Virus record (IMG/VR): IMGVR_UViG_3300032053_000420 | Coordinates: 1 to 27,394 of that record | Length of the DNA: 27,394 bases | Direction: 5' to 3' (one strand) | Origin: a virus | Part shown: positions 2,762-25,552 of the stretch, piece by piece | How positions within the stretch are numbered: the first letter of the stretch is position 1 | Layout: every line of letters starts with the position of its first letter | Notes under the pieces: generated by a model | Database searches by the model: none | What the model was told of the DNA's origin: nothing | Seen by the model: the letters and a program-made list of their open reading frames with translations, nothing else | Made by a program: the position numbers and the translations under genes

Positions 2762-3091
2762 TTAGTCTAATGCTTTTCCTGCTTTGAGATCATCTAGTTG
2801 TCGTTTATACCGAGCTTCCATTGCTGTGTCCATCGGTGTAAGTTTTCTATCTGTGCTTTGTGCTCTCTTTACGTCGTATTCAAATAATTTGTCTTCAAGA
2901 GATTGTTTTCTAAGTATTACTGCTGTGTCTTTGATAACTCTTTGAGTTTGTACTTTATCCTTCTCAACATCCGCGGCGTGTGCATATCGTGCATCTACTG
3001 TAAATAACGCTGCCACAACGGCAATAATTGAGCCGACTGAACCTAATAATAATTTTGTTGTATTGCTTTTTGCGATGTCTGAAACTGGCAT
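2762..3091 (-). CDS. Small single-pass membrane protein with coiled tail (paralogue A)
   Basis: This 109-residue protein has a short N-terminal segment, one hydrophobic helix at about residues 13-32, and a long charged helical tail. Right after the membrane segment it carries RYAHAADVEKDK (35-46). The next gene upstream has RYATVADLEKHK at the same place, so the two are paralogues. N-terminal anchoring with a charged helical domain on the other side of the membrane is clear; no signal-peptidase or lipobox site is seen. It follows ACGGAG and a NATAAATA box, indicating late expression. A role in lysis or membrane association is possible but not shown. Confidence 0.8.
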   Translation of the reverse strand: MPVSDIAKSNTTKLLLGSVGSIIAVVAALFTVDARYAHAADVEKDKVQTQRVIKDTAVILRKQSLEDKLFEYDVKRAQSTDRKLTPMDTAMEARYKRQLDDLKAGKALD

Positions 3092-3113
3092 AATAAACTC
3101 CGTAATGAGTATA

Positions 3114-3329
3114 TTATTTATCTTGTTTCTTGGATAATTCGGTTATCTGATTCTGCAATTCCCTAATTATAACAGAATTTTCTATCTTGTGTTTTTCGAG
3201 ATCGGCAACTGTTGCGTATCTCATTTCAGAGAAGATAGTACCTACGAGCGTAAATATTATTGTTCCAATGGAAATTGATCCAATTAGGGCCTTCCATGGA
3301 TTTTCTTTGATAATTTCTCTTACTGACAT
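3114..3329 (-). CDS. Small single-pass membrane protein (paralogue B)
   Basis: This 71-residue protein has an amphipathic start (MSVREIIKENPWKAL), one membrane helix at about 12-34, then RYATVADLEKHK and a heptad-like tail rich in Glu, Leu and Ile (IRELQNQITELSKKQ), probably a coiled coil. It is a shorter paralogue of the neighbour at 2762-3091. It has a strong CAGGAG ribosome-binding site 7 nt before the ATG and its own late-type box. The separate but nearly identical promoter/leader arrangement of the two genes suggests tandem duplication including the control region. Function unknown. Confidence 0.78.
   Translation of the reverse strand: MSVREIIKENPWKALIGSISIGTIIFTLVGTIFSEMRYATVADLEKHKIENSVIIRELQNQITELSKKQDK
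3115..3122 (-). promoter_or_regulatory. T4-late-like promoter box GATAAATA
   Basis: GATAAATA followed by ATAT on the minus strand, about 23 bp before the ATG at 3091. It overlaps the end of the upstream paralogue gene. Confidence 0.6.
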
Positions 3330-3350
3330 AATATACTCCTGCGTAATATA

Positions 3351-4145
3351 TTATTTATCCAATCCCATTTCCTTCCTGATTTTTGTTGCTGAAATAGAAG
3401 TAATAGATTCATCAAAGCTTTCCTGTTCAATTTTATATCCAACATCGCGACCATAGGTAATATTTACAATATTGGGTACAAGAATAATTTCATACTGACC
3501 CTGATATACGGGATCAAGGTCTCTCTTGATAAGTTCTTTTACTTGATCTGCTGCAAAGGGATTACTTCCGTTCCATCCTTGACAATCTCTAATCATAATA
3601 GCTACTTGCCCCGTTTTTGCTATTGCCCGTTCAAACAATGCACGATGTCCTTTATGCCAGGGTTGCCATCTGCCTAACATTTGAACTGTTTCCTTCTGCC
3701 AATCAAAAACAGGTCGACGACGATCTTCAATAATGTGTGTTGCAATAAATTCAGACCACTTCTGTGCATCCTGTTCTATTACACGAAAATCATAAACATC
3801 GGGTGTCACAAATGCTTTATTCGTATCATCGAACCTACTGCGCTCAATTGTATCTACCCAAATAGTCCAATCTGCTTTGAAATTGTTACGCATTTCTACC
3901 AACGGCGCTACAAAATCACAAACGGCAATATCGGCACCACATTTGTCGGCTAATTCCCTCATACGATGACTTTGTCGGATTCTACCCTCATGGCTGAAGT
4001 CCCAATCATTATATTTCTTGCGAACAATATCTGCATTAAACCATTCTACACTTGCACCGGCTGCAATAAACTGTTCGACAAGTTTTTCAGTTAATGTCGT
4101 TTTTCCTGCGCCTGGCAAGCCCATTACTAAAATTCGTTGTGTCAT
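3351..4145 (-). CDS. Fused P-loop kinase (APS-kinase-like) and HxGH nucleotidyltransferase
   Basis: The 264-residue protein has two domains. Residues 1-140 form a P-loop kinase with Walker A GLPGAGKT (9-16) and the segments WFNADIVRKKYNDWDFS and GADIAVCDFVAPL, typical of adenylylsulfate (APS) kinases. Residues 155-264 form a nucleotidyltransferase of the NMNAT/cytidylyltransferase type, with GRWQPWHKGH (HxGH, 164-167) and the C-terminal ISATKIR (251-257). The first domain phosphorylates and the second would transfer a nucleotide; neither substrate can be read from sequence. The second domain is far too short for ATP sulfurylase, and the order is opposite to NadR. The ATG at 4145 lies just past the upstream stop (TAATATG), better than an ATG 57 nt earlier inside that gene. 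Coupling to the HAD gene suggests one pathway. Confidence 0.85.
   Translation of the reverse strand: MTQRILVMGLPGAGKTTLTEKLVEQFIAAGASVEWFNADIVRKKYNDWDFSHEGRIRQSHRMRELADKCGADIAVCDFVAPLVEMRNNFKADWTIWVDTIERSRFDDTNKAFVTPDVYDFRVIEQDAQKWSEFIATHIIEDRRRPVFDWQKETVQMLGRWQPWHKGHRALFERAIAKTGQVAIMIRDCQGWNGSNPFAADQVKELIKRDLDPVYQGQYEIILVPNIVNITYGRDVGYKIEQESFDESITSISATKIRKEMGLDK
3352..3359 (-). promoter_or_regulatory. T4-late-like promoter box GATAAATA
   Basis: GATAAATA followed by ATATA on the minus strand, about 22 bp before the ATG at 3329. It is built into the last codons and TAA stop of the kinase fusion gene. Confidence 0.6.
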
Positions 4146-4146
4146 A

Positions 4147-4749
4147 TTATATTCCGTATTCGTTTCGTACCATGTTATAGATTTCGTTCCACGGAGTATC
4201 ATAACTTACAGTTGGAAATAAATCTGTTTTATAATGGAAATTGTAAGGATGGTTAATCAGAACTGTTCTGAGGCCGGCTTCATAGCCCGCCTCAGCCTGA
4301 CGCATGTGATCCTCAATCCAAAAGTATCCTGTGTCGGCCCACTTCATTAGAATGCTTGCTTTACTAGCACCTTGTTCGATGCAATGAACATCGTCAAATA
4401 CATCACCAAACAAGTCTGTTAGATTATTGGTTCTATGAATTTTGGCATCGGGGTGACTGCTAATGCTAGTGACAACAATGAATCTAAAACCTAACTCCGA
4501 TAATAATCTCACATGCTGAACTGAATCAGCAAATGGAGAAAGATGTGCTATATCGGAGCTTTCGTTAAATTCCTTGACATAGTCCATTGCTTGGTGAGTT
4601 GTGACATTATGCCTGAGAGAAATATTATATTCAGTATCAGTTTCGGGCACCCGTGGATGTCCACGCCTTGCCATGAATTTATCAAATGCTGTATTCCAAT
4701 CTACCAAGACGCCATCAGCATCTGTTAGAATAATTTTCTCTCTTTTCAT
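4147..4749 (-). CDS. HAD-superfamily phosphatase, 5'-deoxyribonucleotidase-like
   Basis: The 200-residue protein opens with HAD motif I, TDADGVLVDW, with D10 and D12 as nucleophile and acid/base. VVTSISS near residue 93 is motif II, and WIEDHMRQAEAG holds the late acidic motif. The helical cap after motif I and the size fit the 5'(3')-deoxyribonucleotidase branch, which removes phosphate from nucleoside monophosphates; other small-molecule phosphatases remain possible. Its start overlaps the preceding stop (ATGA), and the kinase/nucleotidyltransferase gene begins 1 bp after its stop. The tight pairing points to joint action on a nucleotide or nucleotide-activated metabolite. Confidence 0.85.
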   Translation of the reverse strand: MKREKIILTDADGVLVDWNTAFDKFMARRGHPRVPETDTEYNISLRHNVTTHQAMDYVKEFNESSDIAHLSPFADSVQHVRLLSELGFRFIVVTSISSHPDAKIHRTNNLTDLFGDVFDDVHCIEQGASKASILMKWADTGYFWIEDHMRQAEAGYEAGLRTVLINHPYNFHYKTDLFPTVSYDTPWNEIYNMVRNEYGI

Positions 4750-23043: not shown

Positions 23044-23667
23044 TTATTTTAGGCCATTTGGAACAATCTCTTGATGTCTCCAGTGCTTATCAGTCTGCAC
23101 ATGACCTTTTCTGACGTATTTTGCAACACTGGTTCCAAAATTGTCATATGCAAAACTATCAGCAAGGCGAACAACAAACCCCTCGTCCTTTATGGTATCG
23201 AGGTTCTTGTGCAAGTTCTTGCAGGCATCTTCATTCCAAATGCCATCGTAGATTACAGGAACAGATTCAATTCCGAGTAACTCACAGTATTGGACTGTAT
23301 CATCCCAGGCCAAGCACACATTCGACTCATTCCAAATAGAGAATGCCATGAAGTATGACGGCAGCTCATCATAAGCAATAGAGTGGCGTGCCCACAGATT
23401 CTCACCGCAGATTCGCCAATTTTCGGGGATATTGTGAGCCATACCTGCCCACATTGTCTTGACCCAGTCTCTGTCTACGCCTCCCCTGCTGTCAATACTA
23501 CGAGCATGGATGTGGTTTGAATACATGGTTGTATTCTCGCCGTCCATTTTCTTGGTAATGACAACACGCTTACCACCGAAGTGCGAAAGGTCGTGCAGAA
23601 CCTTATCGTCATCGGTGGTGCCGGGACTCCAGGGGAGGTGTGGGGTACGCGGATATTTTGTAAACAT
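23044..23667 (-). CDS. RNA ligase (Rnl family)
   Basis: The 207-residue protein has the covalent nucleotidyltransferase motifs: TKKMDGENTTM (motif I, KxDGE, with K40 as the AMP-accepting lysine), CGENLWARHSI (motif III-like), EGFVVR (motif IV) and AKYVRKGHV (motif V). The N-terminal YPRTPHLPWSPG is seen in many phage and bacterial RNA ligases. It seals RNA 3'-OH/5'-P ends and may repair tRNAs cut by host defence nucleases. ATG 23667 has CAGGAG 6 nt upstream; an in-frame start 21 nt earlier overlaps that site. The leader can fold into two exclusive hairpins, one of which masks the ribosome-binding site. Confidence 0.9.
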   Translation of the reverse strand: MFTKYPRTPHLPWSPGTTDDDKVLHDLSHFGGKRVVITKKMDGENTTMYSNHIHARSIDSRGGVDRDWVKTMWAGMAHNIPENWRICGENLWARHSIAYDELPSYFMAFSIWNESNVCLAWDDTVQYCELLGIESVPVIYDGIWNEDACKNLHKNLDTIKDEGFVVRLADSFAYDNFGTSVAKYVRKGHVQTDKHWRHQEIVPNGLK

Positions 23668-23673
23668 GATATA

Positions 23674-23698
23674 CTCCTGTGGTAGCACAGGAGCTACC
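23674..23698 (-). promoter_or_regulatory. Mutually exclusive hairpins over the RNA ligase ribosome-binding site
   Basis: On the minus strand hairpin B is CTCCTGTG, loop CTAC, CACAGGAG (23693-23674), an 8-bp perfect stem whose 3' arm is the Shine-Dalgarno. Hairpin A is GGTAGC, loop TCCTGT, GCTACC (23698-23681), which uses the 5' arm of B and would free the Shine-Dalgarno. The upstream stop (23701) is so close that a terminating ribosome would cover the switch. Confidence 0.65.
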
Positions 23699-23700
23699 GG

Positions 23701-23850
23701 TTACATGCAGGCTTTACGAATTTCTTCAGCCTTTACGCCTGCCTTAATTGCTTCTATTTTACACTGGTGTCCCTGGTATCCCCAGAAAGTAAGGCCTGCA
23801 ATAATCATTGCAGCAACGACACCGGATAGAATGGCTTCAACTCTACTCAT
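23701..23850 (-). CDS. Small single-pass membrane protein, 49 aa
   Basis: The translation begins MSRVEAILSGVVAAMIIAGL and continues TFWGYQGHQCKIEAIKAGVK to the end at AEEIRKACM. A hydrophobic helix spans about residues 6-24, and two Cys (30 and 48) flank an amphipathic helix. ATG 23850 overlaps the preceding stop (ATGA) after AAGGAAATTAA. It could be a holin-like or other membrane-modulating peptide; nothing more can be read. Its stop codon lies 2 bp from the RNA ligase switch, so its translation may control the ligase. Confidence 0.72.
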   Translation of the reverse strand: MSRVEAILSGVVAAMIIAGLTFWGYQGHQCKIEAIKAGVKAEEIRKACM

Positions 23851-24034
23851 TTAATTTCCTTAGGAGGATTCCACTGTCTTGCAACTTGCAGAATACCAAA
23901 CATTGTTGTTTTCAATGTGTCGCCTCGATACAATGATTGCACCACTTCCCAACAAGCCCATTTACAGAGCTCATCAAATGTCCATTCATTAATATCTTTT
24001 TCAAAATTTACAGGCGAACTCATTTAATTTCCTT
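23845..24034. repeat. 17-bp direct repeat at two gene junctions
   Basis: Minus-strand AAGGAAATTAAATGAGT occurs identically at 23861-23845 and at 24034-24018. Each copy spans a junction where the upstream gene ends KEIK-stop and the downstream gene starts in ATGA. The 58-aa gene lies between the two copies as a cassette. Confidence 0.75.
23847..24023 (-). CDS. Small hypothetical protein, 58 aa
   Basis: The protein begins MSSPVNFEKDINEWTFDELC and continues KWACWEVVQS, ending RQWNPPKEIK. It is Trp-rich and helical (FDELCKWACWEVVQSLYRG), with no membrane segment and two Cys. It overlaps the DNA ligase stop (ATGA) and the next gene (ATGA), and AAGGAAAT precedes its ATG. Flanked by the 17-bp repeat. 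Cotranslated with ligase genes, so a small accessory role in replication is possible, not shown. Confidence 0.7.
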   Translation of the reverse strand: MSSPVNFEKDINEWTFDELCKWACWEVVQSLYRGDTLKTTMFGILQVARQWNPPKEIK

Positions 24035-25333
24035 TGAACTATTTGCAACAGTCTTGTCAGTACGGAATTCAGCAAAACGGCACAGGAACAATGAATCAAC
24101 ACCAGTGCGCGACTTGCTCTTAATGCGTTCATTATAAATGACTGTGGCAATTGTGCCTAGCAATCCAGCCTGATTTTTGGTAATTTCCAAACGCAAATCA
24201 TCCGGGAATCCGCTAATGTTACATTCAACAAGCCTATCGCTGGATGCCATTTGCATGCTTCCAACCATACCAAGGAACTTGCCCTCGCCGGGATTGAAAC
24301 CAATAATTTCCATATCTGCGTCTTTTTCCGCCTTCATCTTTACCAGATGCTTGCTGCGCGAATCTTCCCAGAGGGCACAGTAGTTCTTAAGGATGGTGCC
24401 CTCGTGTCCTTCGGCCAAGAGTTGCTCAAAGTGAGCAACAGCTTCTTCGAGACTACCAACGGTCTTGTATGGAATAACCCAATAAGACTTATCTGCTTGA
24501 GGCCTGGCATCAACTGCCTGAATAAGCCTCTCAAAGCGGTGTTTGTAACTATCTACCGACTTTCCTTCCTTAAATTCGGCAAGAGGAATCGCATCCCAAA
24601 TCTGGAACCTGATCATCTTTGCTTCTTCTTCGGAAATTGTGCCCTTAATGGCCTTGTTGATAATGCCATTGCCTGTTTTGCGGTCAATGACGCGGCCGAA
24701 CTTATCCGCCACAACAAATTCACCATCAAAAACGACTGGCCATGGAAATTCGGCAGCCAAAGAAATCATCGCCTGGTCCAGTGCCCCAAGTAAGTCGATT
24801 TCTCTTCCACTGCGGCCGAACAAATTCACAACATGGCCTTCAACGATTGCATTTGCACGCAAACCATCAGCCTTCAACTGACTGTAGGCAGGGTACTTAA
24901 TGTTCTTGATGTTCTTCTCGTCGTAGGGACGAGCAAGCAAACAGGGGTAGCTGGGAATGAACCCGGGCAGTGCTACGTTCGTTGTGCCATCGCCTGCACC
25001 ACAACGCAGGTCTTTACCAATAATCCGGCTAACAACAACAGCATCATCAGCGGAAATGCTACCAAGGATACTGCGCAGATGCTCAATACCTGCGTGGCCA
25101 GTGAGTTGTCTATTCGACAGCCTCTTAAGTTCAACCAATGCCCAGTCGAGGGTCTTTCCACCTTTTGGATCATAGTCGGGGATCTTTCTGATGTGATAGT
25201 TTGTGTAAGGATTCAGCGCAGCCTGCAACACATCCAGAAACAATTGGTTGCCCTTGTTCTGTTCAATGAGAGCTATCTTTGCCGTGCGGGCAGACACCTT
25301 CTCAATATTTTCCAAAATTTGCAGAATGCTCAT
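24020..25333 (-). CDS. 30: ATP-dependent DNA ligase (T4 gp30-like)
   Basis: The 437-residue protein is a T4-type DNA ligase along its length: MSILQILENIEKVSARTAKI at the N-terminus, motif I YSQLKADGLRA with K154 (AMP-accepting), VFDGEFVV (motif III), GTILKN (motif IV), and HLVKMKAEKDADMEIIGF (motif V region). T4 gp30 is 487 aa; the difference is in shorter loops. It joins Okazaki fragments and seals nicks in repair. A sigma-70 promoter lies directly upstream and AAAGGAA precedes ATG 25333, so it is probably expressed early. It ends coupled to the 58-aa gene. Confidence 0.96.
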   Translation of the reverse strand: MSILQILENIEKVSARTAKIALIEQNKGNQLFLDVLQAALNPYTNYHIRKIPDYDPKGGKTLDWALVELKRLSNRQLTGHAGIEHLRSILGSISADDAVVVSRIIGKDLRCGAGDGTTNVALPGFIPSYPCLLARPYDEKNIKNIKYPAYSQLKADGLRANAIVEGHVVNLFGRSGREIDLLGALDQAMISLAAEFPWPVVFDGEFVVADKFGRVIDRKTGNGIINKAIKGTISEEEAKMIRFQIWDAIPLAEFKEGKSVDSYKHRFERLIQAVDARPQADKSYWVIPYKTVGSLEEAVAHFEQLLAEGHEGTILKNYCALWEDSRSKHLVKMKAEKDADMEIIGFNPGEGKFLGMVGSMQMASSDRLVECNISGFPDDLRLEITKNQAGLLGTIATVIYNERIKSKSRTGVDSLFLCRFAEFRTDKTVANSSKEIK

Positions 25334-25353: not shown

Positions 25354-25382
25354 ATTGTACAGGGAATTTATGCAGCAGTCAA
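25354..25382 (-). promoter_or_regulatory. Sigma-70-type promoter (early class) C
   Basis: TTGACT (25382-25377), 17 bp, TACAAT (25359-25354) on the minus strand. The -35 box overlaps the stop of the 57-aa zinc protein gene. Predicted start near 25347 leaves a 13-14 nt leader to the DNA ligase ATG. Confidence 0.88.
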
Positions 25383-25552
25383 TCGGTTTCTTTGAGCTCT
25401 TTTTCTATAATATAATTTGCCATCTCGGTTGGCATTGTAGTATACATCCTATCGTGATGTACTTCGCAATAGGACTTACCGAACATGGCAGGATGGCGGC
25501 AATGTTCGCCATCGCCGATCCAAGCACAAACAATATTCTTCTTTTCTTCCAT
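25379..25552 (-). CDS. Small zinc-binding protein, 57 aa
   Basis: The sequence starts MEEKKNIVCAWIGDGEHCRH, followed by PAMFGKSYCEVHHDRMYTTM and an acidic helix. C9, C18, C29 and H32/H33 form a C-x8-C-x10-C-x2-H zinc knuckle (GKSYCEVH). This pattern resembles the C-terminal cysteine part of the alphaproteobacterial regulator GcrA (CxW ... C ... GxxYCxxH), but the N-terminal DNA-binding half is absent, so it is not a full GcrA. ATG 25552 shares its A with the endonuclease stop (TAATG). It has a normal codon pattern and ends inside the -35 box of promoter C. Confidence 0.75.
   Translation of the reverse strand: MEEKKNIVCAWIGDGEHCRHPAMFGKSYCEVHHDRMYTTMPTEMANYIIEKELKETD

Follow-up and report, generated by a model that had tools for sequence, protein, structure and literature searches.

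The short gap in front of a phage RNA ligase gene holds two hairpins that share bases; do they form a real switch over the ribosome-binding site, and if so, what would throw it? The gap lies in a virus record of 27.4 kb (IMG/VR), which we analysed in full (27,394 nt, hereafter the window). To judge from its gene content, the window is T4-like phage DNA: it encodes members of the head maturation protease and clamp-loader families and carries late-promoter-like NATAAATA boxes before several genes. The RNA ligase was identified by matches to Pfam PF09414 (E 1.6e-30) and phrog_24030 (RNA ligase, E 9.4e-74), a PDB sequence search with the protein gave no match at E 0.01, and the position of its ATG is unchanged among close relatives. 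We infer an operon with the order DNA ligase, 58-aa gene, 49-aa gene, RNA ligase, probably read from a promoter before the DNA ligase gene, where TTGAC/TAYAAT-type boxes are found in nearly all relatives. No promoter was seen inside the 33-nt gap, which is entirely occupied by the element. The features of the locus are:

25354 to 25382, minus strand: sigma70-like promoter TTGACT-17-TACAAT before the DNA ligase gene, the putative operon promoter
24020 to 25333, minus strand: ATP-dependent DNA ligase gene (phrog_114, E 4e-119), first in the putative operon
23701 to 23850, minus strand: gene of a 49-aa small membrane protein, preceding RNA ligase; not a constant partner of the element
23701 to 23703, minus strand: TAA stop of the 49-aa gene, 2 nt 5' of the element
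23667 to 23044, minus strand: RNA ligase gene (207 aa), with its ATG start codon at 23665 to 23667

The 49-aa gene belongs to a family of proteins of ~50 aa, marked by a single apparent membrane segment and the tail QC..EA.KAG....I.K.C, which is a recurrent neighbour of RNA ligase and is without a Pfam or PHROG match. Before the DNA ligase gene, positions 25379-25552 encode a 57-aa Cys/His-rich protein (CAWIGDGEHCRHP...YCEVHHDRM) with a weak WRC match under the Pfam cut-off; in one relative (L010) this protein is the immediate upstream neighbour of RNA ligase. A kinase/nucleotidyltransferase-like gene that matches APS_kinase lies elsewhere in the window (3351-4749, minus strand), together with a HAD-like gene that weakly matches the polynucleotide kinase PHROG; the two are candidates for end healing in partnership with the ligase.

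On the minus strand the gap and the codons that border it read TAA CC GGTAGC TCCTGT GCTACC ACAGGAG TATATC ATG. The layout is A-X-A'-X', in which A and A' form a 6-bp hairpin with X as its loop (hairpin A), while X and X', together with flanking bases, form an 8-bp stem with the loop CUAC (hairpin B). The parts of the element are:

23693 to 23698, minus strand: A, GGTAGC, the 5' arm of hairpin A; in the extended hairpin B its GGUA is paired with UAUC
23686 to 23693, minus strand: CTCCTGTG, the 5' arm of hairpin B, containing X = TCCTGT (the anti-Shine-Dalgarno); X doubles as the loop of hairpin A
23681 to 23686, minus strand: A', GCTACC, the 3' arm of hairpin A, which pairs in 10/10 aligned sequences
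23674 to 23681, minus strand: CACAGGAG, the 3' arm of hairpin B, made of the last base of A' and X'; it contains the Shine-Dalgarno (SD) GGAG (23677-23674) and covaries with X
23668 to 23671, minus strand: UAUC, the 3' side of the base of hairpin B, pairing with GGUA (23698-23695) in the minimum-energy fold

A first-pass annotation had described two perfect hairpins sharing bases in this gap, 2 nt from the upstream stop, and the sequence confirms that arrangement: the 8-bp stem CTCCTGTG/CACAGGAG (23693-23686 with 23681-23674) and the 6-bp stem GGTAGC/GCTACC (23698-23693 with 23686-23681) are both perfect. Sequence and folding likewise bear out that the longer stem buries the SD and that the shorter one is exclusive with it. 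The best fold extends beyond the 8-bp stem, since GGUA pairs with UAUC before the ATG to give 13 bp with one bulged A, and the 5' arm of hairpin A is therefore common to both states. Such an arrangement is hardly expected by chance. The window contains a single match to GGTAGC-N2-9-GCTACC where 0.01 would be expected, the 47-nt leader is predicted to fold at -16.4 kcal/mol (z -4.05; 0/200 shuffles equally good), the lowest folding energy among the gene starts listed, and two interleaved hairpins totalling 15 bp were obtained in 2/300 dinucleotide shuffles of the window leader (0-11/300 for each of the seven other versions described below).

We searched IMG/VR for relatives in two rounds, which yielded 32 and 55 loci (partly the same ones) that encode related ligases; one further locus (L156) was added by its DNA pattern. 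Element-bearing leaders fall into eight distinct versions that share the same architecture and both stems, with TATC before the ATG in 7/8:

window, L006 and L008: X UCCUGU
L007: X UCCU
L156: X UCCU, X' ACAGGAG
L001-L005: X CCUUGG with X' CCAAGG
L009: X CUAU with GCAUAGG, the X/X' pair being CUAUGC/GCAUAG
L189 (same record as L230): X UCCCGG, X' CCGGGA
L195: GGUGAU UCCUAU GUCAUC AUAGGAG
L011: GGUAGU UCUUGG ACUACC AAGAA

In an alignment of 10 sequences all 60 cells of stem A are paired, and double compensatory changes are found at 3/6 pairs, these coming from few lineages with each change seen in one sequence. The percentage paired and the covariation score of stem A were each equalled in 1/500 column shuffles, and sliding the partners by 1-3 columns lowers pairing to 12-69%. 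L195 alone differs at 6/12 bases of the stem with all six pairs intact. Stem B in the same alignment is 89.7% paired, with double changes at 3 pairs; its alignment support is more moderate because X and X' vary in length and shift register. When X' was swapped among the eight versions, the observed complementarity was equalled in 15/20,000 permutations, or in 751/20,000 with L013 added, the omission of L013 having been decided after seeing the data. The arrangement is also specific to this gene. Interleaved hairpins of at least 14 bp precede 10/16 RNA ligase starts and 7/177 other starts on the same contigs (Fisher p 8e-9, a value that ignores relatedness among the sequences), and in 44 viral contigs where ATCATG follows hairpin A, X/X' complementarity is confined to RNA ligase genes.

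A comparison of homologous loci for compensatory changes, which had been proposed as a check on the switch, thus comes out favourably for both stems across the eight versions. Homologues that keep one stem or neither, named beforehand as evidence against it, do exist: L013 retains hairpin A with hairpin B absent, and L010 has neither stem and a different hairpin at its ATG. The switch is accordingly not universal, although the eight versions keep both stems. As read from the aligned relatives, the element consists of two helices that exclude each other and that have both been preserved through compensatory changes, and since the folds are kept in related phages despite changed bases, we consider that it is very probably a real switch.

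L012 and L014 build two exclusive hairpins from unrelated sequence, with the 3' arm of the first hairpin reused as 5' arm in the second. Relatives below ~65% identity have leaders without a comparable element. Cultured phages reach at most ~57% identity over the ligase, and the leaders of CcrBL9, XacN1 and SCTP-2 contain no such element, so that no laboratory phage carrying it was found among those looked at; a protein-based search of bacterial genomes returned a single distant relative. The RNA ligases of L189/L230, L011-L014 and other relatives have an extra N-terminal domain of ~130 aa that shows the HNH-like pattern C..C...H...H (CVFC..DAHHILERR...CEEHH); in these proteins Pfam matched the RNA ligase domain alone. 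The switch precedes the fused and unfused forms alike.

Predicted energetics suggest the order in which the two folds appear. The full hairpin B lies 4-12 kcal/mol below A in energy, its predicted stability across versions being -12 to -19 kcal/mol, and state A is hardly populated in equilibrium folding. A is predicted to be the best fold until 4-9 nt beyond A' have been transcribed. Because A must open almost completely, the predicted barrier for refolding from A to B is ~9-13 kcal/mol (nested paths only). Together these values lead us to expect that A forms first and lasts for an appreciable time, and that B prevails at equilibrium. An H-type pseudoknot combining A with X/X' was rejected on geometry, as the linkers would be 0 nt with both 6-bp stems in the window and likewise 0 nt in L007 with its 4-nt X.

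Phage genes are often described as translationally coupled. In every carrier the upstream stop lies 0-3 nt before the element, and three unrelated upstream genes are involved: a gene of the 49-aa family in the window, L008, L009, L012-L014, L189 and L195, the DNA ligase gene in L006, L007 and L156, and a gene whose product has 157 or 162 aa in L001-L005 and L011. The suggestion that ligase synthesis is tied to the small membrane protein is therefore not sustained, since the element is kept behind DNA ligase or the 157/162-aa gene. In relatives that lack the element, the ligase starts directly at the upstream stop (ATGA overlap in L172, L174 and L180; TAAATG in L176 and L177), the upstream genes are of the same two small kinds, and element-bearing and stop-start forms are interspersed in the ligase tree. 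From this pattern, coupling seems to be reached by either of two routes, the element or direct stop-start overlap, and it is plausible that ligase translation is coupled to whichever gene precedes it.

Folding of the free leaders gives an unpaired probability of the SD near 0 in most versions, with that of L001, L009 and L013 already ~25-50% open. In a crude calculation, masking the bases that a ribosome at the stop would cover raised SD openness from ~0-0.25 to 0.1-0.6 in most versions. A terminating ribosome as the actuator, also put forward in the first-pass annotation, is thus plausible given the stop at 0-3 nt, the stop-start relatives and the effect of the mask, the actuation itself being deduced from these. 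Upstream ribosomes unfolding RNA is one of two models of coupling, and coupling efficiency declines with growing stop-start distance (2025 review, PMC12548453); unfolding would consequently fit a gap of ~30 nt better than scanning. The equality of gap and element may simply be owing to the compactness of phage genomes. A conserved leader peptide was considered and rejected: an ATG or GTG follows or overlaps the stop in L001, L008, L009, L189, L195 and L011, is absent in the window, L006, L007, L156 and L013, and opens differing frames. In L009 and L195 the ATG after the upstream stop opens a frame of seven codons (MVAYATA and MVIPMSS, each followed by a stop) whose TAG overlaps the RNA ligase SD; the other versions are without these frames.

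With both stems, their covariation, their specificity for RNA ligase and the position of the upstream stop established, the reading that we favour, at a probability of about 0.62, is that the gap holds a default-off bistable intercistronic element of ~30 nt that couples translation of RNA ligase to the preceding gene. We infer which state is ON and which OFF, actuation by the ribosome, the part that A plays in timing and what the element is for as follows. In state B, the X/X' and GGUA/UAUC pairs would bury the SD, and in some relatives also the AUG, giving a stable OFF state. In state A, GGUAGC/GCUACC would trap the anti-SD X in the loop and leave the SD free (ON). Because hairpin A is complete before X' is transcribed, new mRNA would pass through the ON state. 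Later, a ribosome ending the upstream gene would cover GGUAGC and the first bases of X, B would open and a 30S subunit could load, while a re-formed A would keep the anti-SD away from the SD. Output of RNA ligase would thereby be coupled to fresh, translated operon mRNA, the spacer element doing what stop-start overlap does in element-free relatives.

Several other accounts share part of this evidence. The simplest is coupling by an SD-sequestering hairpin in which B alone matters and A is incidental. It agrees with B being the minimum-energy fold in all versions, with the position of the element adjacent to the stop and with L010 and L012, where the start region is buried by a hairpin that lacks GGTAGC. 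We nevertheless regard it as unlikely, given that stem A is paired in 10/10 aligned rows and that the changes in L195 and L011 are double, with A' altered where A was altered and pairing retained. A' is mostly loop in state B, and the loop register of B varies by version (CUAC, GCUA, UACC, ACUA, UCAU, CUACCA); a conserved B loop cannot therefore explain the retention of A', and the pairing of A is kept all the same. Another account is a protein operator, with RNA ligase or another phage RNA-binding protein stabilising one hairpin. T4 offers precedents for protein-bound mRNA operators in gp43, gp32 and RegA, the GGTAGC/GCTACC sequence is nearly invariant, and the element accompanies RNA ligase across changes of upstream gene, in front of both its HNH-fused and its short form. 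The base changes at 6/12 positions of stem A in L195, with pairs kept, and the freely variable X argue against a fixed recognition sequence, which makes an operator improbable. No evidence was found for the control by an RNA-binding protein, or for the induction of ligase on demand, that had initially been proposed.

Two further accounts seem to us highly improbable. One is regulation of the T4 gene e/soc type, in which the SD is buried in read-through mRNA and freed in late transcripts starting inside the hairpin. The mechanism is established in T4 (PMC3014915), and NATAAATA late boxes with such hairpins occur elsewhere in the window and in relatives, but there is no NATAAATA box near 23668-23703 in the window, nor in the leaders of relatives looked at, and hairpin A would be left without a role. 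The other, an RNA thermometer or small-ligand riboswitch using two folds, would suit an SD-burying hairpin with an alternative fold; it is at odds with the high predicted stability of B and with the lack of both a conserved unpaired core for a ligand and an Rfam match. A search of the leader against Rfam assigned it to no family, the only hit being Mu-gpT-DE, whose 14.8 bits (E 0.93) fall far short of the gathering score of 49. Distinctly doubtful, too, is a ribosome-actuated latch with memory, in which one terminating ribosome would flip the leader to A, and A, with its loop locking up the anti-SD, would remain ON for seconds to minutes. If such a latch existed, a slowing of ribosomes close to the upstream stop, as when host defence cleaves tRNAs, could yield extra RNA ligase exactly at the time of need for repair.

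The default-off coupling element that we favour would show how a phage confines a repair ligase to mRNA that is newly made and under active translation. A conserved, portable bistable element of ~30 nt with covariation in both exclusive stems is rare and very compact. It is small enough for a complete mutational test and could serve as a ready-made coupling part.

We found no description of this element in the literature and would probably place it as translational coupling with an added conserved bistable element. The phage lambda cIII mRNA also adopts two folds, tuned by temperature and RNase III. As there, alternative open and closed mRNA folds lie over a phage ribosome-binding site; the present element differs in being ~30 nt long, intercistronic and of A-X-A'-X' layout, and we claim no relation to cIII. 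Coupling by RNA unfolding is exemplified by f1 VII-IX, MS2 coat-lysis and rpmI-rplT (PMC12548453). Here as in those systems, RNA structure buries the downstream ribosome-binding site, the upstream stop adjoins it and ribosomes could open it, whereas the conservation of a second exclusive hairpin and the movement of the element between upstream genes set it apart. The leaders of T4 gene e, soc, 49 and I-TevI sequester the SD (PMC3014915) and resemble the element as SD helices in T4-like phage mRNA, but the element is without an internal late promoter and has a second exclusive hairpin. Hairpins that bury the SD and whose 5' arm coincides in part with a T4-type late box (ATAAATA...) lie on the minus strand of the window at 3070-3125 and 3310-3362, and the same type precedes the minus-strand starts at 3143 in L095 (AGATAAATATGTAATCCCGGAGGATTACATATG) and at 3522 in L058; these look like gene e/soc control in other T4-like phages. 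In AapA toxin mRNAs, metastable co-transcriptional hairpins hide the SD (PMC6733600). As in those mRNAs, a short hairpin would form first during transcription and be replaced later, but here the transient hairpin would free the SD and the final one hide it.
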